DNA of 57,640 nt, taken from contig JBDTMN010000008.1 in the NCBI GenBank assembly GCA_039934295.1, forward strand, positions 1 to 57,640, read 5' to 3'. This document shows, piece after piece, positions 26,149 through 47,972 of the stretch; position 1 is the stretch's first letter; each line of letters starts with the position of its first letter. Position numbers and translations under genes: made by a program. Origin of the DNA: Candidatus Taylorbacteria bacterium. GTDB taxonomy: Bacteria; Patescibacteriota; Minisyncoccia; Phycocordibacterales; HO2-43-120. The notes under the pieces were generated by a model. That model had not been told where the DNA came from. It ran no database searches and saw only the letters and a program-made list of their open reading frames with translations.

Positions 26149-26185
26149 AATCCCCCCAAGTTTCTCCGAGAAACTTGGGGGGATT
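26149..26185. terminator. Terminator of clpP
   Basis: AATCCCCCCAAGTTTC (26149-26164) pairs perfectly with its complement (26170-26185) around a TCCGA loop. The same loop design recurs in terminators at 38.9 and 41.7 kb. Confidence 0.75.
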
Positions 26186-35252: not shown

Positions 35253-35264
35253 TCATGTCAAGGA

Positions 35265-35324
35265 CGGTCCTTGCCGGAGGCTTACGGTCCTTGCCGGAGG
35301 CTTACGGTCCTTGCCGGAGGCTTA
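35265..35324. repeat. Three tandem 20-bp repeats
   Basis: The unit CGGTCCTTGCCGGAGGCTTA occurs three times exactly in tandem, in the gene-free spacer before the lectin-like gene. Confidence 0.9.
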
Positions 35325-35398: not shown

Positions 35399-36397
35399 CT
35401 AACTTTGTATAGCCATCCACATAATACCAGGATCCCTCTCAGTACGACAAGAATTACTGTTTGGGGTTCCATAACGTATATTGAATCCTGTTGTGGTCAC
35501 GTTAGTTACCCAAAAGATAGTCGCCTCATTACCGTTCTCGTTCATCCACTTAGACTGGAGAAATACCTTAGGAGCTTGGGTGAATGTCTTATTAAAAGAA
35601 ACTGCCGTGGTTGTAACCCATGCGTATTCAGCACAATTAATATTTGCCAAACCTGTATCGATAACTTGGGTTGATCCACTTCCTCCCGAAGGACTTCCGG
35701 TAAAAATGGTCAGGTATATTTCTATTAGACCCGTATCGTAGGTAGTATTTGGTGTTATGTGGTTGTTATTTATTAGATGCACTTTCACTCTAGATTGAGC
35801 TTGATCAACTTCAACATATGCTTGCATATCCATAAATTCAGTAATAGACACCTGACCATCTACCATATAAGTAGTAAGGTCAGATAATCCTCCATAACGT
35901 ACTGCTGCTGCAGTCATGGTATTGCCACTTGGTAAACTGATAGTTATCCAGTCAGAAACCCCATTAACAAAATTGACATCGGTATGGTATGTAAATATAT
36001 TACCCCAGTTCCCCGTACCTCCTCCCCCTCCTCCAGTTGGCGTCTGCCATGTTGCGTTTCCGACATCATCAGACGTGAGGACTTTGCCTGATCCTTGGCT
36101 CCCGTTGAAAATTTTGACGGTGGCGGGACTGGTTGTAGTGCCAATCTCAATATTACCGTTAAAAATCGATTTCCCGAAGACCAAGAGACCGACTTTATAT
36201 GGGTCAATTATCTGTGTATTTATTCTAAGCTGTCCAAGCTTTGTTTGCACATTATCCCCAACATTTATGGGCGCTTCGGCATTTCCGTTTGGAGGAGCCA
36301 TGGTGGGAGCTGTATACCCCGCTTGCAGAGAACTGACTCCAAATAGTATTCCTAAGCTTAGGGCTATCGACAAGATGTATTGTTTTGCTGTTTTCAT
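35399..36397 (-). CDS. Secreted protein with C-terminal H-type-lectin-like domain
   Basis: This 332-residue protein has a signal peptide (ending near SSLQAG). An Asn/Gly-rich region similar to phage-tail or adhesin stalks follows (residues 30-130, with a GGGGGG linker). A C-terminal strand-rich domain (FTQAPKVFLQSKW, VTNVTTTGFNIRYG, MWMAIQS) resembles the H-type lectin fold, whose members bind N-acetylgalactosamine. It may mediate attachment to a host or matrix. The next gene in the same direction (36399-36716) ends 1 nt before this one starts, so they form an operon. Confidence 0.65.
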   Translation of the reverse strand: MKTAKQYILSIALSLGILFGVSSLQAGYTAPTMAPPNGNAEAPINVGDNVQTKLGQLRINTQIIDPYKVGLLVFGKSIFNGNIEIGTTTSPATVKIFNGSQGSGKVLTSDDVGNATWQTPTGGGGGGTGNWGNIFTYHTDVNFVNGVSDWITISLPSGNTMTAAAVRYGGLSDLTTYMVDGQVSITEFMDMQAYVEVDQAQSRVKVHLINNNHITPNTTYDTGLIEIYLTIFTGSPSGGSGSTQVIDTGLANINCAEYAWVTTTAVSFNKTFTQAPKVFLQSKWMNENGNEATIFWVTNVTTTGFNIRYGTPNSNSCRTERDPGIMWMAIQS

Positions 36398-36398
36398 A

Positions 36399-36716
36399 TT
36401 ATTTTAATTGTTGTGCCTGTTTAATTAATAAAAGTTTTGCCTCTGCCTGCGACTGACTCAATGTGACCCTCGAAGTATCTGTTTCCTCAATTATTTTTTT
36501 CTTTTCCGCCGCCTGCTCTGGAGTGAGGGTTACTCTTTGTTCGAGAAGGGGGACTTCTTTTACAATGGGAGAGGGAGAAGTTGCGTAATAGTAGACAGCA
36601 TATGCAAGGAAGATAAGCACCACAAAAATACCTACAGTAGAAAGTATTACGGTGACGTTGGGTCGTTTTTGTTCTTGAGGAAATTGGGGAGAATTGTTCG
36701 AAGAGATGTTGTCCAT
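36399..36716 (-). CDS. Small single-TM protein
   Basis: This 105-residue protein has a Ser/Asn/Pro-rich N-terminus, one transmembrane helix (VILSTVGIFVVLIFLAYAVY) and a charged helical tail (LTPEQAAEKKKIIEE). It resembles the protein at 39069-39377 in layout: N-terminal polar stretch, one helix, then a Leu-Thr-x-Glu/Ala repeat-like tail. Both precede a large secreted protein gene, suggesting a shared role in anchoring or export. It is transcribed first in the operon with the lectin-like gene. Confidence 0.6.
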   Translation of the reverse strand: MDNISSNNSPQFPQEQKRPNVTVILSTVGIFVVLIFLAYAVYYYATSPSPIVKEVPLLEQRVTLTPEQAAEKKKIIEETDTSRVTLSQSQAEAKLLLIKQAQQLK

Positions 36717-36819
36717 GAGATGAATTATAGTATCGAATAAAAAGATAAGCAATGAACAGGGTGTGGATATGTTTGATTATTGATTTAAAAAAAGGTGAGT
36801 AAGAAGATTGGGAGGATTT

Positions 36820-36852
36820 TGCCCCCAGCACTTTCCGAAAGTGCTGGGGGCA
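36820..36852. terminator. Terminator-like hairpin
   Basis: CCCCCAGCACTTT pairs perfectly with AAAGTGCTGGGGG around CCG. Confidence 0.6.
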
Positions 36853-37103: not shown

Positions 37104-37109
37104 TATACT
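37104..37109 (+). promoter_or_regulatory. -10 box of the 37117 gene (leaderless)
   Basis: TATACT ends 7 nt before the ATG at 37117. Confidence 0.55.
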
Positions 37110-37116
37110 TTACCTC

Positions 37117-37335
37117 ATGGACACTTTTCCCAATCTGTCCCAAACGGAAGTATCTTCGCACTCTCGCGGAGACCGCAAGCTCATTCCCATTCTTGTTCTT
37201 TTCGCTCTAGCTCTCTTGCTTTTTTTCCTTATGCATTTTTTCTTCTCGAAGAAAATTGTTTTTCCCGACACCATTCCCATTGACTCTTTGACTCAGGATT
37301 ACCGCGGTGTTTGGCAAGGACTGTCCATGACATGA
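37117..37335 (+). CDS. Small single-TM protein upstream of a surface protein
   Basis: This 72-residue protein has a polar N-terminus (about 22 residues), one hydrophobic helix (LIPILVLFALALLLFFLMHF) and a short tail. I start at 37117 because a TATACT box lies 7 nt upstream and the longer frame runs through an inverted repeat. It is followed 52 nt later by a large secreted protein, matching the small-TM-then-secreted pattern at 36.4-36.7 and 39.1-41.6 kb. Confidence 0.55.
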   Translation: MDTFPNLSQTEVSSHSRGDRKLIPILVLFALALLLFFLMHFFFSKKIVFPDTIPIDSLTQDYRGVWQGLSMT

Positions 37336-37387: not shown

Positions 37388-38863
37388 ATGTCCACCAGTA
37401 AAAAAATTATATTTTTCGGTCTTGCTCTCGCTTTTATTTTTGCCGGAGCATATTCGATTGGGCGCAGTGAGAGCGCGCAAGCGGCAGCTGGGTCGCTCAA
37501 GGGGTGGGGGTGGTCTTCAAACATTGGGTGGATTAATTTTGACGGGGTGGTAAAAAATGATGACGGCACGCTTTCTGGCTACGCTTGGGCGAACCCGCAA
37601 GATGATACCGCAGTGCCTCCGACTAAAAACATTGGATGGTTTCAATTTGGCGGGCTTTCTGGGGTCACAAACGCAAGTATAGATGCGGCAGGCAAGATGC
37701 ACGGCTTTGCGAGGGCACTTTCTGCTGATTGGAATGGCTGGGATGGGTGGGTTAGTTTCGATGGCACTGCAACAGATGGAAGCCCATACGGCGTAACTTT
37801 GGGCAGTACTCCAGGAACTTTTTGCCCATCAGCTACGAGTTGTCCAGGGTATGATTTTGCGTGGGGGTCTGATGTTGTCGGCTGGATAGACATGAGCGGG
37901 GTCTATTTAATAACGGATTTTGATTTTGTTCTGGACCCTCCAACGCTTCCGCTAGGTGCCACCGCTATCCAAATCCAACTAGGTACTCCGAATGTTAGCA
38001 CCCATGTTGCATCAAGACTGTTGCTCGGAAGTCCTGCAGGGTCGGGCTTTTTTGGATTTAGTTTGAGCACGGATAGCACTTCGGATCCGATTCCTGGAGT
38101 CACAGGTGCTTTAGTAACTGCAGGCAGTTATTTGCCGACATCAGGAGCAGGGACAAATGTAGATTTTATATTAAATGGTTTGGGCGGTCTTGCAAAAGGT
38201 AGCTATGTGATTCATGTCAGTCAGTCTGTTAGTCTAAGTGATTATGTATCCGGGCTGATTCGTTCAACCACAATTGATCTTGACGTTGTAGACACAATAC
38301 CTCCGCTGGGGACTCCTGATACGCCTACTCCATCCGTTGCTACGGGTGCCTGTGGAGGAGCAATTATTATTTCAGGGTATCAAGTTAGCGGGGCGGGTAA
38401 TCTATATAGAATCTGGCGTGAGGATACCAATCCTAATAGACTGACTCAAATTTATGACGGTGAAGACACAATAAGGACCGATACTGGTCTCACTTCGGGC
38501 ACTTCCTACTCTTATAGAGTTCAAGCATACAACGGGCTCAACAATTCTGCTCTTTCAAATCCAGTACCACCAGCTTTTGCTTCCGACGTTTGTCCTGTGA
38601 ATCCACTTCTGACCAATTGTACGGGAACTATACCTTTTGGAAGCGGGACTGTGAAAGGGCCCGACCAATATACTCCACCTCCACCCACTCCTCCAAGTAC
38701 TGATTGGGACCATGGCTACATCATTTACCCTTCTTCGGCGACGTCCCTCCCTTCAGTAGGAGCTTGTCAGTGGACATGCAATCTGGGCTATAGCAAAGTT
38801 GAAGGTGAGACAGGCGCGAACAAGAACAGTTGCAGACCGATTCCGGGGTATGGACAGCAGTAG
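37388..38863 (+). CDS. Secreted surface protein with GWGWSxNIGW and fibronectin-like modules
   Basis: This 491-residue protein has a signal peptide (cleaved near AQAAAG). Near the N-terminus is a KGWGWSSNIGWINFDG motif typical of Parcubacteria surface proteins, with further NIGWFQFGG, GWDGWVSFDG and VVGWIDMSG repeats to about residue 175. A central strand-rich domain and a fibronectin-III-like domain (about 310-400) follow. A Pro-rich linker and a Cys-rich C-terminal module (WTCNLGYSKV, SCRPIPGYGQQ) end the protein. The same C-terminal module ends the protein at 39380-41626, with nearly identical DNA, so it may be a shared sorting or anchoring signal. Confidence 0.7.
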   Translation: MSTSKKIIFFGLALAFIFAGAYSIGRSESAQAAAGSLKGWGWSSNIGWINFDGVVKNDDGTLSGYAWANPQDDTAVPPTKNIGWFQFGGLSGVTNASIDAAGKMHGFARALSADWNGWDGWVSFDGTATDGSPYGVTLGSTPGTFCPSATSCPGYDFAWGSDVVGWIDMSGVYLITDFDFVLDPPTLPLGATAIQIQLGTPNVSTHVASRLLLGSPAGSGFFGFSLSTDSTSDPIPGVTGALVTAGSYLPTSGAGTNVDFILNGLGGLAKGSYVIHVSQSVSLSDYVSGLIRSTTIDLDVVDTIPPLGTPDTPTPSVATGACGGAIIISGYQVSGAGNLYRIWREDTNPNRLTQIYDGEDTIRTDTGLTSGTSYSYRVQAYNGLNNSALSNPVPPAFASDVCPVNPLLTNCTGTIPFGSGTVKGPDQYTPPPPTPPSTDWDHGYIIYPSSATSLPSVGACQWTCNLGYSKVEGETGANKNSCRPIPGYGQQ

Positions 38864-38930
38864 AATAGGGAATGTAACGTGTAACATGTAACGTGTTAAC
38901 GTCAGAAGAAGAGAGAGAAAGAATGATAAA

Positions 38931-38963
38931 GCCCCGAGCTTTTCTCCGAGAAAAGCTCGGGGC
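38931..38963 (+). terminator. Terminator (copy of that at 41691)
   Basis: GCCCCGAGCTTTTC pairs perfectly with its complement around TCCGA. The same hairpin follows the related gene at 41.7 kb. Confidence 0.75.
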
Positions 38964-39068
38964 TGGTGGAAAAAAAAAGGGGGGGGAGAAGTTATGCACA
39001 CCCTCTGCTTTAGTGCTTCGACAAATGTAGTAATATGAATATGTATCTCACTCGCTCAATGAAAATCT

Positions 39069-39377
39069 ATGGACGAAAATAAAACATCTGCTCAAAATAA
39101 AAATCCGGTTGTCATTGCTTTTTTGATATGTGTTATCGCGCTTTCGATTACCTATATTGCTTCAACAGCGCTGAATTTTAAAAAAACAAGCGAGCTTCCG
39201 AAAGAACTTACGCTCGCAGAAAAAAAGGCAGAAGTGATAGCTCGTCTGCAAAGTACAGATACCCAACCTCTTACTAAAGCAGAACGCTCGGAGATTGTAG
39301 ATTTTGTGTCCCGTGGCGGAGCGACCTATACTGAAGCGGAGAGAGCGGAGATTACTCGGATATTAAGGGCAAAATAA
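39069..39377 (+). CDS. Small single-TM protein
   Basis: This 102-residue protein has an N-terminal polar part, one transmembrane helix (VVIAFLICVIALSITYIAST) and a helical charged tail (ELTLAEKKAEVIARLQ, PLTKAERSEIVDFV). The tail resembles that of the protein at 36399-36716. It precedes the large secreted protein gene by 2 nt, and the two are surely co-translated. A role in anchoring or assembling the surface protein is inference. Confidence 0.6.
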   Translation: MDENKTSAQNKNPVVIAFLICVIALSITYIASTALNFKKTSELPKELTLAEKKAEVIARLQSTDTQPLTKAERSEIVDFVSRGGATYTEAERAEITRILRAK

Positions 39378-39379
39378 TC

Positions 39380-41626
39380 ATGAAAAAATATTCCCTAAGA
39401 ATTTTCCTAATATCAATAATTTTTGTTTCGGCGTGGGGAATCTCTAGTATCAATACTCATTTTGTATTTGCGCAAAGTCAAACTATTTCTCTTTCGAATG
39501 ATGGCAATAAAACTGTAGCTCAAGGCTCGAGTGCCATCAGTCAAATTACCGCAACACGATTAAATGGATTTTCAGGCGGTATTAATTTTTCAGTGACTGT
39601 TCGGGATTCTTCAAATAATATTGTAAATACCATTTCACCGGGGATTAGCACATCATTCTCCCCAAATCCTTTACCTTCCGGTCAGACAATTTCTTCACTT
39701 ACCTTAGGGACATTTTCTGGTACGCCAATTGGCACTTATAGTGTCACGGTTACGCCATTAGTAACTGGAGGAAGTTGCTGGAGTGAAGCGGATTTGCTTG
39801 AAACTTCTCATCCAGGTGCTGGAGGTCCCTACGAAACATATGATCCGATTCGAATAGTACATTGTAGTGACAATATAGGAAGGTACCAGGAAAATATATA
39901 TCCTTCTTCACAATATGCTTGTAGTACTTCATATCCCACTCCTTACAATAAGCCTATTTATTTTTGTGGCGCAAATAACTGGACCAAGACTCCAACCTGC
40001 GATTACACATTTTCTTGCACGACCCCAATCGTTGCGCCGTCTATCTCTACGACATTTACACTGACAGTAACTTCTGCCGTCAATCCAGCGCCTTTCATTG
40101 ACTTCAACCTTACCAATAGCGGGAACATTACTGTACAAGCAGGCAACTCGGGTTCAAATACCATTACGAAAACATTAACAGCTGGAACGACACAGCCGGT
40201 AACATTGTCTGTTTCTGGATTACCCTCCGGAGCTACCTTGAATCCCGCTATAACGAACAATCCTTCAAATCCCACGGGCTCTTCCGTTTTGACAATTAAA
40301 ACCACAGCAAGTACTCCTGTCGGTACATATCCTATTACAGTGACGGGTGAAGCGTCTTCTGCAGGAACTTCTATTTATTACTGTGCTCGCGGATATTTTA
40401 TGAATCCAGGAAATACCCAATTTGATGGTTATTCGTATGAGTGTTCTACCAACTCTAGTTTTACGGTGACCTACCCATCGGAAGCGAATATAGAATGTCA
40501 TCGCACCGATGATGCGGGGTGCCCTTATACTACTTTGTCACAGATGACGGGGCTAGCCAATTTTTATTGTAGTGGTGGAGGAGCCACTTGGAGTTATTAT
40601 CCAACTCCCGGCACCCCTTCAAACAATTTCAGCTGTACCACTCTAAATCGAACTACGACATTTACGCTGACAGTTACCTCTACTGTCGTTCCCTACGAAC
40701 CGCCGACTGGAGTAACGACAGCTCTCGGCGCTTGTGTAAACTCGGTCAAGTCCGTTCAACTCTCGTGGACCGCTCCCGCAAACTTGGATGTCATTGATTA
40801 TGGTATTTATCGAGGGGGTGTTTTTATAGAAAAAGCTGGAAGTGCTTTCGCTAGTTCCGCTCCATCATATATCGACCATCCACCTGAGGGTACGTACACA
40901 TACTCGGTATCGGCGCTCTATGTCGGAGATGGCGGAGTCATAGGAGAATCGTCTCTCACTCCCGCTTCGCCGATTACGGTTACTGCATGTTCCACGACAT
41001 ATTCCTGTGTAGGCAATTTACCCGCGGGAGCCACAATGTGTTCTGGAGATGATGTTGGTCTTGCGGGACCCACAAACTGGACTTCAGCTGGAAACAGCAG
41101 TTCCGACTGTACAGCTACAAAATGTGAACATTACACTCCTCTACCAGGTACTCCTTTGACAATAAACGCAGTGACTTCATCTACCTGTGGAGGAAAGATC
41201 GATGTTTCTTGGAGTTCTTCTTCTGGAGCGACAAGTTATAGTCTCTACCGTGAGGGAACATCAGCGGCAATTTATGTCGGTCCCGGGAGATCATTTCCGG
41301 ATACCGTGATGGACGGTTTACCTCATAGATATCGTGTTTTGGCTTCAAATAGCTCGGGGGATTCACCTCTCTCTTCTTATACTTCTTCGACCTCTCCCTC
41401 ACCTGCCTGCGTCGTAGCAACATGTAATCCTCCGAAACCATCGGGAAGCGGAATTGTAGTGAACCCTGTTGAAGTAGCCGCTCTTAACTGGACGTATCAT
41501 ACTTATCCTTCTACTGACCCATTACTTCCTGCATTGGGAGCTTGCGAATGGACCTGCAATCTGGGCTTCAGCAAAGTTGGAGGCGAGAACAGTTGCAGAC
41601 CGATTCCGGGGTATGGACAGCAGTAG
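39380..41626 (+). CDS. Large secreted Ig-like surface protein
   Basis: This 748-residue protein has a signal peptide (cleaved near VFAQSQ), then several strand-rich Ig-like domains separated by Cys-containing modules. Two copies of a segment ending TTTFTLTVTS and one of STTFTLTVTS can be seen. Fibronectin-III-like domains occupy about residues 445-520 and 590-660. The C-terminus ends with the same Cys-rich module as the 37388 gene (WTCNLGFSKV, NSCRPIPGYGQQ). It is probably displayed on the cell surface, possibly as an adhesin. It forms an operon with the small membrane protein before it. Confidence 0.7.
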   Translation: MKKYSLRIFLISIIFVSAWGISSINTHFVFAQSQTISLSNDGNKTVAQGSSAISQITATRLNGFSGGINFSVTVRDSSNNIVNTISPGISTSFSPNPLPSGQTISSLTLGTFSGTPIGTYSVTVTPLVTGGSCWSEADLLETSHPGAGGPYETYDPIRIVHCSDNIGRYQENIYPSSQYACSTSYPTPYNKPIYFCGANNWTKTPTCDYTFSCTTPIVAPSISTTFTLTVTSAVNPAPFIDFNLTNSGNITVQAGNSGSNTITKTLTAGTTQPVTLSVSGLPSGATLNPAITNNPSNPTGSSVLTIKTTASTPVGTYPITVTGEASSAGTSIYYCARGYFMNPGNTQFDGYSYECSTNSSFTVTYPSEANIECHRTDDAGCPYTTLSQMTGLANFYCSGGGATWSYYPTPGTPSNNFSCTTLNRTTTFTLTVTSTVVPYEPPTGVTTALGACVNSVKSVQLSWTAPANLDVIDYGIYRGGVFIEKAGSAFASSAPSYIDHPPEGTYTYSVSALYVGDGGVIGESSLTPASPITVTACSTTYSCVGNLPAGATMCSGDDVGLAGPTNWTSAGNSSSDCTATKCEHYTPLPGTPLTINAVTSSTCGGKIDVSWSSSSGATSYSLYREGTSAAIYVGPGRSFPDTVMDGLPHRYRVLASNSSGDSPLSSYTSSTSPSPACVVATCNPPKPSGSGIVVNPVEVAALNWTYHTYPSTDPLLPALGACEWTCNLGFSKVGGENSCRPIPGYGQQ

Positions 41627-41690
41627 GGGGAAGCTATTAGCTGTTAGGTTTTAGCTGTTAGGTTCAAGAATGAGAAAGAAAGACAGATAT

Positions 41691-41723
41691 GCCCCGAGCT
41701 TTTCTCCGAGAAAAGCTCGGGGC
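41691..41723 (+). terminator. Terminator (copy of that at 38931)
   Basis: GCCCCGAGCTTTTC pairs perfectly with its complement around TCCGA; a second terminator follows. Confidence 0.7.
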
Positions 41724-41752
41724 AAGGGGATAAGCGGAGAAAAAGAGAGATT

Positions 41753-41787
41753 AAAAAACTTGTCCCCCGAGGGGGACAAGTTTTTTT
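41753..41787 (+). terminator. Second terminator before the pilus genes
   Basis: ACTTGTCCCCC pairs with GGGGGACAAGT around GA, with A6 before and T7 after. Confidence 0.8.
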
Positions 41788-41799
41788 AGGTAGAGGTGC

Positions 41800-41928
41800 T
41801 ATAATTACGGAACAAATTCGAAGCAAGAAATTCGAAATCCGAAAAAAGAATTAACTTTAAAATAGTAAACAAAGAAATTTCCTATTTAAAACTGTTTAAT
41901 TAAAACTTTTTTCGAATTTCGTGCTTCG
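41800..41928 (+). promoter_or_regulatory. pilB -10 box and leader hairpin
   Basis: TATAAT lies at 41800-41805. The 140-nt leader carries an 18-bp inverted repeat with one mismatch: CGAAGCAAGAAATTCGAA (41819-41836) against 41911-41928. This contrasts with leaderless genes elsewhere. Confidence 0.5.
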
Positions 41929-41944
41929 GATTTCGGATTTACTC

Positions 41945-43693
41945 ATGTATATCGAAGAAAAAAAACTTAAGGAATTTATTTTGGATTCGGGACTGGTCTC
42001 GAAGAGCGACTTTGAGAGTGCCCAAAAGAAGGCGGTGGCGGAAAATGTGAGCGTAGGCAAACTATTAGTAATGAACGGCAAAATCGCCGAAGACGACATG
42101 CGCAGGATGCAGGCCTATGTGCTCGGAATTCCGTTCGTTGACTTGAAGGGCGAAAAAATAGATTTTGAGGTTCTTTCCATGATTCCCGAGCCCATTGCTC
42201 GCAACCACAACATTGTCGCATTCAAAAAAACCGCGGATACGCTCGAAGTGGCGATGACCGACACGGATGACTTGGCAGCAATAGACTTCGTCAAAAAGAA
42301 AGTGAAACTCACTATTTTGCCTCGTCTTACCGATAACGAATCCATAAAACGGGTCATTCTTCAGTATCAAAAAAGTTTGAAAGCCGAATTCGGAGATATT
42401 ATCGCCAAGGAAGCGTTGAATTTAAAAACAATCAATGAAGTGGGGGATTTGACGAGCGAGGGCGATCTCAAAAAGATGGCCGAGGAGCTTCCGGTTGTGC
42501 GCATTGTGGACACGCTTCTCAAACATGCCATTTTACAAAACGCGTCCGACATCCATATCGAGCCACAGGAAACGGAGGTGGTTGTTCGCTACAGGATAGA
42601 CGGAATTCTCCACGACACCATGATCCTTCCCAAAAACGCGGCATCTCCCATAACGGCAAGGATAAAAGTGCTTGCCAATTTGAAGCTCGATGAGAAACGC
42701 TTGCCTCAAGACGGACGGTTCAAAATAGAGATGAACACGGAAAAAGTTTCTTTCCGCGTGTCCCTGTTGCCCATCTACTACGGAGAGAAGACGGTGATGA
42801 GACTGCTTCGGGAAAATGTTTCAGGTTTTTCGCTCGAGGGCATGGGTTTCCACGGAGAGGGATTGGAGAAAGTTCACAACGCTCTGAAAATTACGACGGG
42901 CATGATTTTGACCACGGGACCGACCGGAAGTGGAAAGACCACAACTCTCTACACCATGCTCGATATCGTTAATACGCCGGACGTCAATATCTCAACCATC
43001 GAAGACCCAGTCGAGTATCAGATGAAGCGAGTCAACCAAACACAAGTGCGTCCGGAAATCGGCTTTACGTTTGCAAACGGACTTCGAACGCTGGTGCGGC
43101 AAGACCCCGATATCATCATGGTGGGAGAAATTCGCGACAATGAAACAGCGTCGCTCGCGGTGAACGCCTCCCTGACCGGCCACTTAGTGCTCTCCACTCT
43201 TCACACCAATTCCGCTGCGGGGGCGATACCTCGGCTTCTTGATATGAAAGTAGAGCCGTTTCTTCTGGTGTCCACGGTGAATATTATTTTGGGACAGAGG
43301 CTCATTCGGAAATTGAACGCGGATAAAGAATCGTATTTTTTAAGTCCGGCGGAATTGGCATCGCTCAAAAAAATCGCGGATTTGAATCGCGTGATGAATT
43401 TTCTCAAGGTTGAAAAGATTGTGGACCAGAAAGCAACATGGGAGAAAATGCCGTTTTACCGCCCTCCTAAGGGCAGAAAAGCGGAGGACTCCTACCAGGG
43501 CAGAATTGGCATTCACGAAATCTTGAAAGTTACTCCCACAATTCGCGAGCTTATTTTGCAATCCAAGAGTTCCGATGTGATTGACGCGCAGGCAAAACAG
43601 GAAGGAATGATGTCGATGGTCGAAGACGGCATCTTCAAAGCGGCGCAGGGCATTACGTCGGTTGAGGAGGTACTCCGAGTGGTCTCGGAGTAA
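41945..43693 (+). CDS. pilB: Type IV pilus assembly ATPase PilB/GspE
   Basis: This 582-residue protein has an N-terminal GspE domain (residues 1-150), followed by a RecA-type ATPase. The Walker A motif is GPTGSGKTTT, the Asp box STIEDPVEYQ, Walker B DPDIIMVGEIRD and the His box LTGHLVLSTLHTN. It powers pilus extension. The tetra-cysteine zinc site usual in the C-terminal part of PilB is missing (the segment runs SYFLSPAELASL with no CxxC). It is the first gene of the pilus locus; the start at 41945 follows the leader hairpin. Confidence 0.94.
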   Translation: MYIEEKKLKEFILDSGLVSKSDFESAQKKAVAENVSVGKLLVMNGKIAEDDMRRMQAYVLGIPFVDLKGEKIDFEVLSMIPEPIARNHNIVAFKKTADTLEVAMTDTDDLAAIDFVKKKVKLTILPRLTDNESIKRVILQYQKSLKAEFGDIIAKEALNLKTINEVGDLTSEGDLKKMAEELPVVRIVDTLLKHAILQNASDIHIEPQETEVVVRYRIDGILHDTMILPKNAASPITARIKVLANLKLDEKRLPQDGRFKIEMNTEKVSFRVSLLPIYYGEKTVMRLLRENVSGFSLEGMGFHGEGLEKVHNALKITTGMILTTGPTGSGKTTTLYTMLDIVNTPDVNISTIEDPVEYQMKRVNQTQVRPEIGFTFANGLRTLVRQDPDIIMVGEIRDNETASLAVNASLTGHLVLSTLHTNSAAGAIPRLLDMKVEPFLLVSTVNIILGQRLIRKLNADKESYFLSPAELASLKKIADLNRVMNFLKVEKIVDQKATWEKMPFYRPPKGRKAEDSYQGRIGIHEILKVTPTIRELILQSKSSDVIDAQAKQEGMMSMVEDGIFKAAQGITSVEEVLRVVSE

Positions 43694-43744
43694 CACGGAA
43701 CTGACACGGAAGGAAGATAGCACGGAACAGGCACAGAACCCATT

Positions 43745-44125
43745 ATGAGTACTTTAATTTATGAAAGCGAATCCTACATTATTCGCGGCGGCTGTTTCGA
43801 GGTCTATAAGCAGTTTAGAAACAGACATAAGGAGAAAATTTACAGCAAGGCTTTACTCGTATTTTTGAAGAAAGCGGGCTTAAAAGTAGAACAGGAAAAA
43901 CAGTTACCAATATTTTTTGACGGTGAAAAAGTCGGCGTGTACATCCCTGACATTGTGGTTAACGGTAAGATACTTGTCGAATTAAAATGTAAACCCTTTA
44001 TGACACAAGACGATATGACGCAGTTCTGGTATTATTTGAAGGTAACTAACTTTAGACTTGGATTTTTAATAAATTTTGGCAATAATAACGGCGTAGAAAT
44101 TATACGAAGGGTATATGGCAAATAA
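43745..44125 (+). CDS. GxxExxY protein (PD-(D/E)XK nuclease-like) inserted in the pilus operon
   Basis: This 126-residue protein belongs to the GxxExxY family: FEVYKQFRN, KEKIYSKAL (the ExxY of the name) and the nuclease-like motif YIPDIVVNGKILVELKC, where the Asp and the Glu-Leu-Lys fit a PD-(D/E)XK active site. The family name's glycine is replaced here. Biochemical function is not established. It lies between pilB and pilC, genes normally adjacent, and is flanked by CACGGAAC-type words on one side and their complement on the other. It looks like a recent insertion. Confidence 0.8.
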   Translation: MSTLIYESESYIIRGGCFEVYKQFRNRHKEKIYSKALLVFLKKAGLKVEQEKQLPIFFDGEKVGVYIPDIVVNGKILVELKCKPFMTQDDMTQFWYYLKVTNFRLGFLINFGNNNGVEIIRRVYGK

Positions 44126-44169
44126 GTTCTGTATTCTTTCCGTGTAATGTTCTGTGTCTGTTCAGTGTT

Positions 44170-45381
44170 ATGATTTTCAAATACAAATATCAAATAGAGG
44201 GAGGAGAAATAAAAGAGGGCGAGGGGGAAGCGCCGGACAAGTTTGCGCTCTATCGTCAGCTCAAAAAGGATGGGATCGCGGTTGTTTCCGCGCAGGAAAA
44301 AGGGCCTAAATCGGCGTTTAAGCTTGGGAGTATCACGATTTTCTCCAAAGTATCGACGCGCGACAAGATTAACTTCGCGAGAAACATGGGGGCAATGCTC
44401 GAAGCCGGCCTTGCGCTTTCCCGCATTCTTTCGGTAATGGAGAGGCAGACAAAAAACAAAAAGTTCAAAACACTTATCCAGAAGACGAACGACAACATCA
44501 AAGCGGGGAAACCCTTGAGTGATTCATTGAAGGAGCACGGCAAAACATTTTCTCCCCTCTTTATTTCCATGGTCAAAGCAGGGGAAGAAGGGGGAACGCT
44601 TGTTCAAGCTCTCAAAATTCTTTCAACGCAGATGGAGAAATCGTATCTTCTCGGCAAGCGTCTTAAAGGCGCGCTCATTTATCCGGCTGTGATTATAGGC
44701 GTGATGCTTGTGATTGCGGTCTTGATGCTCATGTTCGTTGTTCCCACTTTGACCTCGACATTTAAAGAATTGAATGTGGCGCTGCCTTTTTCCACGAGGG
44801 TCGTTATCTTTGTAAGCGATTTTCTCAAAGACAACACCGTGATTGCCCTCATTCTTTTTCTTGTAGTCGGTTTTTCGTTGTTTTTTTCGCTCAAAACAAA
44901 AAAAGGCAAAAGAATTTTCGACTACGTTGTGCTTCGCATCCCCGTGATAGGGCAAATCACCAAAGAGACAAACTCGGCGAGAACGGCGCGAACTCTCTCA
45001 TCCCTCCTCTCTTCCGGGGTGGAGTTTGTTTTAGCGATAGATATCACAGGCGATGTTTTGCAGAATTCATATTATAAAGAAGTGCTCAAGGAAGCTAGAG
45101 TTAAAGTTGAAAAAGGCGAGCCGATTTCTGATATTTTTGAAAAAAATGAGGCGCTGTACCCGGTGTTTGTGGGCGAGATGATGAGCGTCGGAGAGGAAAC
45201 GGGAAAACTTGGCGAGATGCTTGTCGGCGTGGCGGATTTTTATGAAAACGAAGTCGACCAAAAGACAAAAGATATGTCCACCATCATTGAGCCAGTGCTC
45301 ATGGTCTTCATAGGCATTGCTGTCGGGTTTTTTGCCATTTCGATGATTACGCCGATGTATACGCTGGTAGATGCGATATAG
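44170..45381 (+). CDS. pilC: Type IV pilus inner-membrane platform protein PilC/GspF
   Basis: This 403-residue protein contains two GspF domains, about 60-185 and 265-390, each starting with a helical bundle (FARNMGAMLEAGLALSRIL; NSARTARTLSSLLSSGVEFV) and ending in a transmembrane region. Three hydrophobic segments are visible (LIYPAVIIGVMLVIAVLMLM, VIALILFLVVGFSLFF, and the C-terminal EPVLMVFIGIAVGFFAISMI). It forms the platform that couples PilB to pilin assembly. It follows the inserted GxxExxY gene. Confidence 0.94.
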   Translation: MIFKYKYQIEGGEIKEGEGEAPDKFALYRQLKKDGIAVVSAQEKGPKSAFKLGSITIFSKVSTRDKINFARNMGAMLEAGLALSRILSVMERQTKNKKFKTLIQKTNDNIKAGKPLSDSLKEHGKTFSPLFISMVKAGEEGGTLVQALKILSTQMEKSYLLGKRLKGALIYPAVIIGVMLVIAVLMLMFVVPTLTSTFKELNVALPFSTRVVIFVSDFLKDNTVIALILFLVVGFSLFFSLKTKKGKRIFDYVVLRIPVIGQITKETNSARTARTLSSLLSSGVEFVLAIDITGDVLQNSYYKEVLKEARVKVEKGEPISDIFEKNEALYPVFVGEMMSVGEETGKLGEMLVGVADFYENEVDQKTKDMSTIIEPVLMVFIGIAVGFFAISMITPMYTLVDAI

Positions 45382-45416
45382 AAGACACATGTAGCATGTA
45401 GCATGTAACATAAAAC

Positions 45417-45493
45417 ATTTGACCATGAAATCAAAAATGCAAAAAAGATTTTCTCGTGTTACATGTTACAAGTTACATGTTACATATTCCCGA
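45417..45493 (+). repeat. Duplicated prepilin-leader segment, copy 1
   Basis: About 77 bp covering the start codon and leader peptide recur at 47305-47381 with two or three changes. The inner part is made of GTTACATGTTACA words like the intergenic repeats of this window. Confidence 0.85.
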
Positions 45494-47263
45494 GGCTTCA
45501 CCCTCATCGAAATGCTTGTCGGCATCGCTATTTTCACGGTCATTTTTATTTCCATCTACCAGGTGTATGTCAGTCTTTTCTCTTTCATTAGTTTGAATCA
45601 GTACAAAATCTTGGCGCTCAATCTTGGAAATGAGCAGATTGAAATCGCCCGCAATCTGGCCTATTCGGACGTGGGTGTCGTAGATTCAATTCCGGACGGT
45701 AAAATTCCGCATATACAAAGTTTGAATCGAGGAGGCAAGGCATTCACCGTAACCACTACGATTCGAAATATTGATTTGCCGTTTGACGGCACAATCGGGG
45801 GCTCTCCCAACGACCTTTCTCCCGCGGATAATAAGCAAATTGAAGTTGAAATTACTTGCCCGACGTGCAAAAATCTTTCACCCCTCACTCTTACCGCCAC
45901 GATTGCTCCAAAAAATCTTGAGACCGCGTCGACGAACGGGGCGCTCTTCATAAAAGTATTTGACGCTAACGGAATTGCGCTTGCCGGCGCATCCGTTCAT
46001 GTTGTAAATGCCGTGCCTAATCCGGACATCGTGATTGATGACGTGACGAATACAAGTGGCATGCTCCAGATTGTCGATGCGCCTCCCGGAGTTGAAGCCT
46101 ACGAGATTACTGTGACAAAAACGGGATATTCAAGCGACCGAACGTATCTAACGGGGGCATCCGGAAATCCAACTCCCTCAAAACCTCACGCGACTGTGCT
46201 TTTGGGACAGGTAACCCAGGTGAGTTTTTCAATCGACCGGACAAGCGTCGTTTCCATGAAGAGCGTCACTCCACTCTGTGTTCCGGTTCCTGATGTTCAT
46301 TTCACTTTTTCTGGTTCCAAAACAATCGGGCCAGGAGTTTTAAAATATTCGGCGAATCTGGCGACAAACGGAAGTGGAACCTATACGAATAATGCTTTGG
46401 AATGGGACACCTATACGATTGTCGGGACTGATGCGACTAACGACATTGTGGGGATAAATCCTTTGAACCCTGTCGCGGTTAATCCCGGGTCCGCAGTTGA
46501 CGTTTCTCTCACTGTCGTGCCAGTAAATCCCAAGAGTCTTCTTGTGACTGTAAAAGACAGCGCCACGGAACTTCCGGTTACTGGCGCCACGGTGACTCTC
46601 ACAAAGAGCCCTTCCTACGATTCGGAGCAAATTACGGGAAGCGGTTACATTAATCAGACCGACTGGTCCGGCGGAAGCGGACAAGATTTGTTCACCGACC
46701 CTCTCCAATATATGGGAAGCGACGGCAATATCGAGACGAGTTCGCCTGGAGGAGAGATTAAATTGAAAAATCTTTTTGGCACGTATAAAACGTCGGGCAC
46801 GCTTGAGTCTTCAACCTTCGACACAGGTTCGCCAAGTAATTTCTACAATCTTAAATGGATTCCGACCGATGAGCCTATTCCCGCGGGACCAAACAGCGTT
46901 CGTTTTCAATTTGCTTCCACTTCAACCCTTCCATTTTCTGGATGGGAATATAAGGGTCCCGACGGAACATCGGGCACGTATTATACTTCTTCCAACACAT
47001 CGCTTTCCTCGGTTCATACGGGGGATAGATATGCGCGCTACAAAGTTTTTCTAAGCACGGATGACACCGCGTTTACTCCAAATATATCCGACATCGCATT
47101 TACATTTACTTCAGAATGCACTCCGCCCGGGCAGGTGGTATTTTCGGGCCTTGCATCGGGAACATACCATGTCTCAGTGTCAAAATCAGGATATTCGACA
47201 TCGGAGTTGGACATACCCGTCACTCTCTCATGGCAGGAGCAGGATATTGTTTTGACTCCTTAA
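45425..47263 (+). CDS. Large prepilin-like protein with carboxypeptidase-regulatory-like domains
   Basis: The 612-residue protein has a type III signal: a basic leader ending in SRG before FTLIEMLVGIAIFTVIF, with the prepilin peptidase site after Gly and the Glu at position +5. The mature part is unusually big for a pilin. It carries carboxypeptidase-regulatory-like (beta-sandwich) domains at about 190-260, 370-405 and at the C-terminus, and a jelly-roll-like region at about 450-580. It could be a tip or minor pilin with an adhesive head. The leader peptide is encoded by a GTTACATGTTACA repeat tract that is almost identical to that of the next gene. Confidence 0.75.
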   Translation: MKSKMQKRFSRVTCYKLHVTYSRGFTLIEMLVGIAIFTVIFISIYQVYVSLFSFISLNQYKILALNLGNEQIEIARNLAYSDVGVVDSIPDGKIPHIQSLNRGGKAFTVTTTIRNIDLPFDGTIGGSPNDLSPADNKQIEVEITCPTCKNLSPLTLTATIAPKNLETASTNGALFIKVFDANGIALAGASVHVVNAVPNPDIVIDDVTNTSGMLQIVDAPPGVEAYEITVTKTGYSSDRTYLTGASGNPTPSKPHATVLLGQVTQVSFSIDRTSVVSMKSVTPLCVPVPDVHFTFSGSKTIGPGVLKYSANLATNGSGTYTNNALEWDTYTIVGTDATNDIVGINPLNPVAVNPGSAVDVSLTVVPVNPKSLLVTVKDSATELPVTGATVTLTKSPSYDSEQITGSGYINQTDWSGGSGQDLFTDPLQYMGSDGNIETSSPGGEIKLKNLFGTYKTSGTLESSTFDTGSPSNFYNLKWIPTDEPIPAGPNSVRFQFASTSTLPFSGWEYKGPDGTSGTYYTSSNTSLSSVHTGDRYARYKVFLSTDDTAFTPNISDIAFTFTSECTPPGQVVFSGLASGTYHVSVSKSGYSTSELDIPVTLSWQEQDIVLTP

Positions 47264-47304
47264 AGAAACATGTAACATAAAACATTTAACATTTAACATT
47301 TAAC

Positions 47305-47381
47305 ATTTGACCATGAAATCAAAAATGCAAAAAAGATTTTCTCGTGTTACATGTTACAGGTTACATGTTACATATTCCCGT
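47305..47381 (+). repeat. Duplicated prepilin-leader segment, copy 2
   Basis: It is the partner of 45417-45493, covering the start and leader peptide of the second prepilin gene. Confidence 0.85.
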
Positions 47382-47972
47382 GGCTTCACCCTCATTGAAG
47401 TGCTCGTAACCATCGCCATACTCCTCATTATTGCCGTTCCTATCGCGTATTTCCAAAGAGATGTCTTGGTAAATAACAGGACTTCTGATGAATCGCTCCA
47501 ATCAATCGCCGCCGCGCGTGTCATTGTCCGGACAATGGTAAAAGAGCTTCGGGGCGTCGCGCCCGGAAATGACGGCTCATACGCGGTTCAGCAGGCGGCA
47601 ACGAGCAGTATCATTTTTTACAGCGACACGAACGATGACGGTTTGAAAGAAAAAATTCGCTACTATCGCTCCGGCACGACGCTCATGAAAGGCACGATCA
47701 AGCCCACAGGCTCTCCGCTCGTCTATGTTCAAGGCAATGAAACGACCTCTGTTTTGATGTATAATATCCGCAATGCCCCATCGGCTCCCTTATTCGAGTA
47801 TTTTGATTCGACTTATGATGGAACCAATCCACCGCTTGCACAACCTGTAGCAGTTGCGCAAGTTCGGCTTTTAAAAATAAGCCTTTCGATTGATTCAAAT
47901 CCAAATTCTCTCCCTCCCGCAGAACTCTATACTTCTCAAGTGATGTTTCGAAATCTAAAAGATAATCTATGA
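47313..47972 (+). CDS. Prepilin-like protein (PilW/PulJ type)
   Basis: This 219-residue minor-pilin-like protein has a leader ending in SRG and the class III signal GFTLIEVLVTIAILLIIAVP. The mature part has the size and strand pattern of a PilW/PulJ-type minor pilin (SLQSIAAARVIVRTMVKELR, then a beta-rich half with ADTNDDG-like loops). It overlaps the next gene by 4 nt. Its leader sequence is a copy of that of the preceding prepilin gene. Confidence 0.75.
   Translation: MKSKMQKRFSRVTCYRLHVTYSRGFTLIEVLVTIAILLIIAVPIAYFQRDVLVNNRTSDESLQSIAAARVIVRTMVKELRGVAPGNDGSYAVQQAATSSIIFYSDTNDDGLKEKIRYYRSGTTLMKGTIKPTGSPLVYVQGNETTSVLMYNIRNAPSAPLFEYFDSTYDGTNPPLAQPVAVAQVRLLKISLSIDSNPNSLPPAELYTSQVMFRNLKDNL

Follow-up and report, generated by a model that had tools for sequence, protein, structure and literature searches.

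Two neighbouring genes in an ultrasmall bacterium of Candidatus Taylorbacteria encode secreted-type proteins that end in the same cysteine-rich sequence, which raises the question of what such a common ending is: a signal that sorts or attaches surface proteins, an extracellular domain, or a trace of DNA copied from one gene to the other. We analysed the stretch of 57,640 nt in which both genes lie (contig JBDTMN010000008.1; hereafter the window), together with the remainder of the genome (1.05 Mb, 25 contigs, 99.1% complete) and its relatives.

The tandem genes and their surroundings

The two genes stand in tandem on the forward strand, P1 (37388..38863, +) coding for 491 aa and P2 (39380..41626, +) for 748 aa. 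P1 is a secreted modular protein with a signal-peptide-like start, repeats of the GWxWS-NIGW type, an fn3-like domain and a C-terminal module with four cysteines; P2, likewise secreted, shares the fn3-like domain and the C-terminal four-Cys module. In a 19-residue hydropathy scan each protein has a single hydrophobic, signal-peptide-like stretch at its N-terminus and no further transmembrane (TM) segment, and the cysteines total 8 in P1 and 24 in P2. The module of P1 (38618..38863, +) runs from CTGTIPFGSG to CRPIPGYGQQ and the stop codon, that of P2 (41423..41626, +) from CNPPKPSGSG to CRPIPGYGQQ and the stop codon. Both C-termini follow the scheme WTCNLG[YF]SKV...NSCRPIPGYGQQ, their full endings being WTCNLGYSKVEGETGANKNSCRPIPGYGQQ (P1) and WTCNLGFSKVGGENSCRPIPGYGQQ (P2), and the original observation of a common ending on the two open reading frames (ORFs) is thereby borne out. 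The pattern coding for CRPIPGY matches twice in the window against 0.00 matches expected, and the string itself was not found in the literature searched. The fn3-like assignment is drawn from scores under the family cut-off, as P1 matched PF00041 (fn3) with an E-value of 6.4e-4 and 20.3 bits (cut-off 25); one of three excised fn3 pieces matched the same family (E 1.2e-4). A Foldseek search, made with a low-confidence model as query, had fn3 structures at the top of its list, the best with an E-value of 4.9e-3 and none at or below 0.001.

Downstream of P2 lie genes of type IV pilus type (41921..47972, +), coding for a T2SSE ATPase, a T2SSF protein and two proteins with prepilin-type N-methylation motifs; a gene for a PDDEXK-type nuclease (43745-44125) sits among them, between those for the T2SSE ATPase and the T2SSF protein. 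This neighbourhood suggests that P1 and P2 may help the cell to attach to a partner. Because pilus genes adjoin them and, according to PMC12206443, host binding of Saccharibacteria is helped by a type IV pilus, an involvement of both proteins in attachment is plausible by analogy. The same source describes the host-binding mechanisms of this ultrasmall group as largely unknown.

Each of the two genes is preceded, as had been noticed from the sequence, by an ORF for a small single-TM protein (37117-37335, +, 72 aa, before P1; 39069-39377, +, 102 aa, before P2). A third ORF of this kind (36399-36752, −, as the longest frame; an in-frame ATG at 36716 gives 105 aa) precedes a gene for a secreted protein with an H-type lectin domain (35399-36397, −; PF09458, E 1e-7), which has no module. 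The pairing thus tracks genes for secreted proteins (3/3 at the locus) and not the module. No BLAST alignment was obtained between the 102-aa or the 72-aa protein and 104 residues of the third (first Met omitted), and a search with the 102-aa protein at E<=1 returned nothing besides itself in the genome studied here and nothing in the sister genome.

Distribution of the module and its internal relatives

In the set searched, the family is represented by two genomes, the one studied here and a sister, both Ca. Taylorbacteria. Even at E<=10, carriers of the module numbered two in the former and one in the latter. A count of two proteins in a genome that is 99% complete speaks against a sorting tag. 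The sister copy is terminal too, ending in CQWTCKPGYAINAEETQCRPIPGYVEF, and its module is 45% identical to that of P1; four of the seven CRPIPGY codons are unlike those of P1, with every residue unchanged. It lies on a 6.1-kb contig that has lost the 5' side of the gene at its end, and among the ORFs of this contig no pilus gene was recognised by eye. A contig scan with two peptide patterns, in a collection that may omit the genome studied here, matched 15 stretches, of which one was confirmed, namely the sister locus (MHSK01000027.1, Ca. Taylorbacteria RIFCSPLOWO2_12_FULL_43_20). In all three genus copies the four cysteines and two tryptophans of the module are invariant, CRPIPGY is kept and the module forms the extreme C-terminus. 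Retention of CRPIPGY and of the terminal position in all three is not needed for plain use as a domain.

Outside the genus, no CRPIPGY-type ending was found by the profile search of the order or the two-pattern contig scan; within these searches the exact tail can therefore be called lineage-specific, as originally proposed, being C-terminal in both genus genomes and found in no other lineage. The genus model matched five of the 397 genomes of the order: the two of the genus; G090, at an E-value of 3.2e-5; G014 (E 0.0026), through a tandem repeat in which EGF_MSP1_1 exceeds its cut-off; and G343, where the frame is interrupted by a stop and yields no credible protein. In the phylum, a core model built from five sequences matched 4/379 genomes, namely the one studied here and three weakly, one of which (G592) gave no credible protein on reading. 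A common occurrence of the module in the order or phylum is not shown by these results. Collections of viral contigs, phages and plasmids gave no match. We rejected a wide spread of the bare frame CxWxCxxGY in the order, as its 44 matches (in 41 of the 397 genomes) were barely enriched over the 36 of a backwards control counted by hand. Thirty of these loci were read on the match strand. Two, both from the genus itself, have frames of 296 and 500 codons; in the remaining 28 the frame is no longer than 112 codons, and in 10 of these a stop interrupts the motif. One of these 28 (L034, a frame of 41 codons) is module-like in appearance. The 14 matches outside the 30 loci include the two modules of G090.

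G090 belongs to another family of the order, and its two modules occupy residues 267-317 and 434-479 in a secreted-type protein of 1278 aa, ending 961 and 799 residues short of the C-terminus. They read CxGTxPTG...WxY...CTWxCNSGYVQSGxxC and share with the genus module the frame CxGTxPTG...WxY...CxWxCNxGY...C; unlike it, they are internal and without CRPIPGY, which is absent from the whole 1278-aa protein. Aligned by hhalign, the genus profile and a profile of these two modules gave an E-value of 1.4e-8 and a probability of 95.5, with a score (41.7) above those of all 200 column shuffles (maximum 19.9) and of all 200 shuffles with cysteines held fixed (maximum 29.0). Because of these two internal copies, we count the core, as judged by profile comparison, as a domain that is also used within proteins; the tail turned up in the genus alone, terminal in 3/3. 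The original view of the module as a feature of C-termini, and not of protein interiors, thus stands for the RPIPGY tail and falls for the core.

Paralogy, 3' ends and hairpins

The likeness of P1 and P2 extends beyond the module, residues 316-491 of P1 and 597-748 of P2 forming a BLASTP alignment of 176 columns, 39% of them identical (E 2e-18), so that about 175 residues, comprising the fn3-like domain and the four-Cys module, are homologous. The two genes are therefore most likely paralogous across their final ~175 codons. Their DNA was also noted to be nearly identical in the module, and the final 41 nt, stop codon included (38823..38863 and 41586..41626, +), are in fact fully identical, the 86-nt stretch just 5' of them (38725-38810 and 41503-41588) being 76% alike. 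Compared codon by codon in P1 numbering, nucleotide identity is 0.48 over residues 306-400, 0.49 over 401-455 and 0.88 over 456-491, and identical residues use the same codon in 15/32, 7/15 and 23/26 cases, respectively. For same-codon use in the last 36 residues (23/26) against the rest (22/47), Fisher's exact test gives p 4e-4, an optimistic value as the boundary was picked after viewing the alignment. Since identity jumps abruptly from 48-49% to 88%, and protein constraint by itself would not be expected to produce such a jump in identity and codon use, we infer that the 3' ends of P1 and P2 were recently homogenised.

Both genes are followed by a 33-nt hairpin of identical sequence, for which no strand is assigned, at 38931..38963 (67 nt past the stop codon of P1) and 41691..41723 (64 nt past that of P2). 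None of 100 shuffles of the window contained a match to this sequence, and 71-nt pieces spanning the two hairpins have folding energies of -29.7 and -29.4 kcal/mol. The stem has 16 pairs, the outermost being A-T in one hairpin and T-A in the other; this swap is a lone compensatory change and weak evidence by itself. A search of both genus genomes with the 16-nt arm, allowing at most one mismatch, gave no matches other than the two hairpins, both of which lie in the genome studied here. The hairpin tip TTTCTCCGAGAAA recurs in a third hairpin (26149-26185) that has no module next to it. Of the claim that both genes share the same terminator hairpin, the shared hairpin holds; its reading as a terminator is doubtful, because on the coding strand, where the stems are followed by GGTGGAAAAAAAAAGG and AGGGGATAAGCGGAGA, there is no U tract directly 3' of the stem. 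The terminator scan called the hairpin terminator-like on the minus strand only, and we rejected it as the intrinsic terminator of P1 and P2. A hairpin with a T run at 41753..41786 is the better terminator candidate for P2.

Copying by-product, sorting tag or extracellular domain

The abrupt climb in DNA identity and the presence of an identical 3' hairpin at exactly two sites of the genome would also fit an explanation in which the endings match through recent duplication or gene conversion and nothing else, the tail having no special role. We consider this unlikely, as the sister species keeps CRPIPGY and the Cys/Trp frame at 45% module identity to P1 despite synonymous divergence, although only two species enter this comparison. 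Because of this retention, the protein sequence of the tail seems to be under constraint. That module and hairpin are paired at both sites could instead point to a mobile 3' cassette moving among genes, which we regard as highly improbable: the homology of P1 and P2 runs upstream into the fn3-like domain, the genome holds no extra copies, the hairpin is absent from the sister genome, and the viral, phage and plasmid collections are without a match.

The tempting reading of the ending, put forward at the outset, is that of a sorting or attachment signal, and it is corrected here. A sorting or attachment tag specific to the genus would have to be a folded domain and not a membrane anchor, fixing the proteins to the envelope or routing them out. 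Its very C-terminal position in all three genus copies is in keeping with such a tag, as is CRPIPGY, the same in two species despite the four differing codons. Another protein of the same genome, of GWxW type and encoded on contig C15, ends in a TM helix followed by KK, so that the module tail occupies the place of a possible anchor. Yet the carriers are few (two proteins in one genome, one in the other), the core is internal in a relative, and both TM helix and basic cluster are missing: within the C-terminal 60 residues the 19-aa hydropathy peaks at 0.49 (P1), 0.79 (P2) and -0.34 (sister) against 3.15 for the C15 protein, and the final 12 residues carry a net charge of +1, +1 and 0, respectively. 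We thus hold a tag of this kind to be improbable, and its narrower form, in which a disulfide-closed fold ending in CRPIPGY would be the genus's own envelope-attachment signal, replacing the TM anchor of the other surface-type protein, to be more improbable again. Should the tail prove to be an attachment signal, it would offer a soluble alternative to membrane-anchor tags. Attachment through an ordinary adhesive domain is possible.

The explanation that we favour, and think rather probable, is that the ending of the two modular adhesin-like proteins is an extracellular domain, small, EGF-like and closed by disulfides, that caps them, and that their genes, paralogous over about 175 codons, had the last ~36 of these, with the hairpin, recently homogenised. 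On the best reading of the sequences, the module has the look of an ordinary extracellular domain more than of an addressing tag. P1 and P2 would be exported by Sec, given their signal-peptide-like starts, and their four conserved cysteines would then be oxidised, plausibly by a VKOR pathway, for which the gene is present (PF07884 exceeds its cut-off in 2/2 genus genomes and 3/14 control genomes). The module may fold as a compact C-terminal cap that either steadies the fn3-like domain or serves to bind a partner. Gene conversion or re-copying of the 3' end could account for the homogenisation of the last ~36 codons and the 3' hairpin. The locus would thus be a case of gene ends apparently homogenised between neighbouring surface-protein genes that adjoin pilus genes in an ultrasmall bacterium.

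AlphaFold models, built from three-sequence alignments, were poor, the mean pLDDT being 61.1 for the module alone and 61.4 when the fn3-like domain was included; at this low confidence the module shows short strands and an unreadable disulfide pairing, and we rejected a fold assignment from these models as too uncertain. The module profile matched no PDB sequence, and a PDB sequence search with the fn3-like domain and module gave three weak matches.

Among known systems, GlyGly-CTERM is a C-terminal sorting tag on surface proteins. MYXO-CTERM resembles the genus tail in being C-terminal, cysteine-containing and carried by surface proteins, but, as described in PMC11980579, its motif is followed by a TM helix and then by an arginine-rich end, and dozens of proteins per genome carry it, whereas the genus tail has neither helix nor such an end and two carriers. 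Three features of CTERM-type tags, a TM helix after the signature, an arginine-rich cytoplasmic end and many carriers, are thus absent from it. The nearest Pfam family is EGF_MSP1_1 (PF12946), under whose cut-off of 27 bits both P1 and P2 score: taken whole or as the C-terminal end, P2 reaches 16.5 to 18.3 bits and P1 12.3 and 15.5 (best match E 0.0024, 18.3 bits). EGF domains usually have six cysteines and differ in this from the module with its four, but they are like it in being short, cysteine-rich and extracellular, in the pattern C-x-W/Y-x-C-x-x-G-Y...C, and in being repeated in some relatives.

Small single-TM genes and the lectin-type pair

A third pairing of a small single-TM gene with a secreted protein gene was observed at 35399-36752 on the minus strand. 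The secreted partner in this pair is an H-type lectin-domain protein (PF09458), and the pair is oriented divergently relative to that of P1, the secreted protein at 37388-38863 (+). The start regions of the two divergent small-TM genes (36710-36729 and 37104-37123) are 85% alike, sharing TATAxTTxAxCTCATGGACA, and BLAST gave no alignment between the proteins that these two genes encode. Downstream of the lectin-type gene, a 20-nt unit, AAGCCTCCGGCAAGGACCGT as read on the minus strand, is present three times in tandem (35264-35323).

Hairpins and a pilin-like protein

The tip TTTCTCCGAGAAA is common to three hairpins (26149-26185, 38930-38964 and 41690-41724), and a further hairpin at 36820-36852 is similar in design. 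The 614-aa protein encoded at 45419-47263, large for a pilin-like protein, combines a prepilin-type N-methylation motif with CarboxypepD_reg/SpaA-like domains.

Loci outside the window

In the same assembly, a GWxW-repeat protein (L058, 1312-2190) carries a C-terminal TM anchor with a KK end, and its gene adjoins a second long ORF that is open at its 5' side. In G184, a module-like frame of 41 codons, AGEFCTWVCSPGYNKKC, lies around position 1501 of locus L034 within no long ORF, and is perhaps a broken gene or a chance occurrence. Transfer or mis-binning may possibly account for two proteins on sister-genome contigs (L022, 1012-2118, and L056, 711-1715, both on the minus strand), which we take to resemble secreted proteins of Verrucomicrobia.
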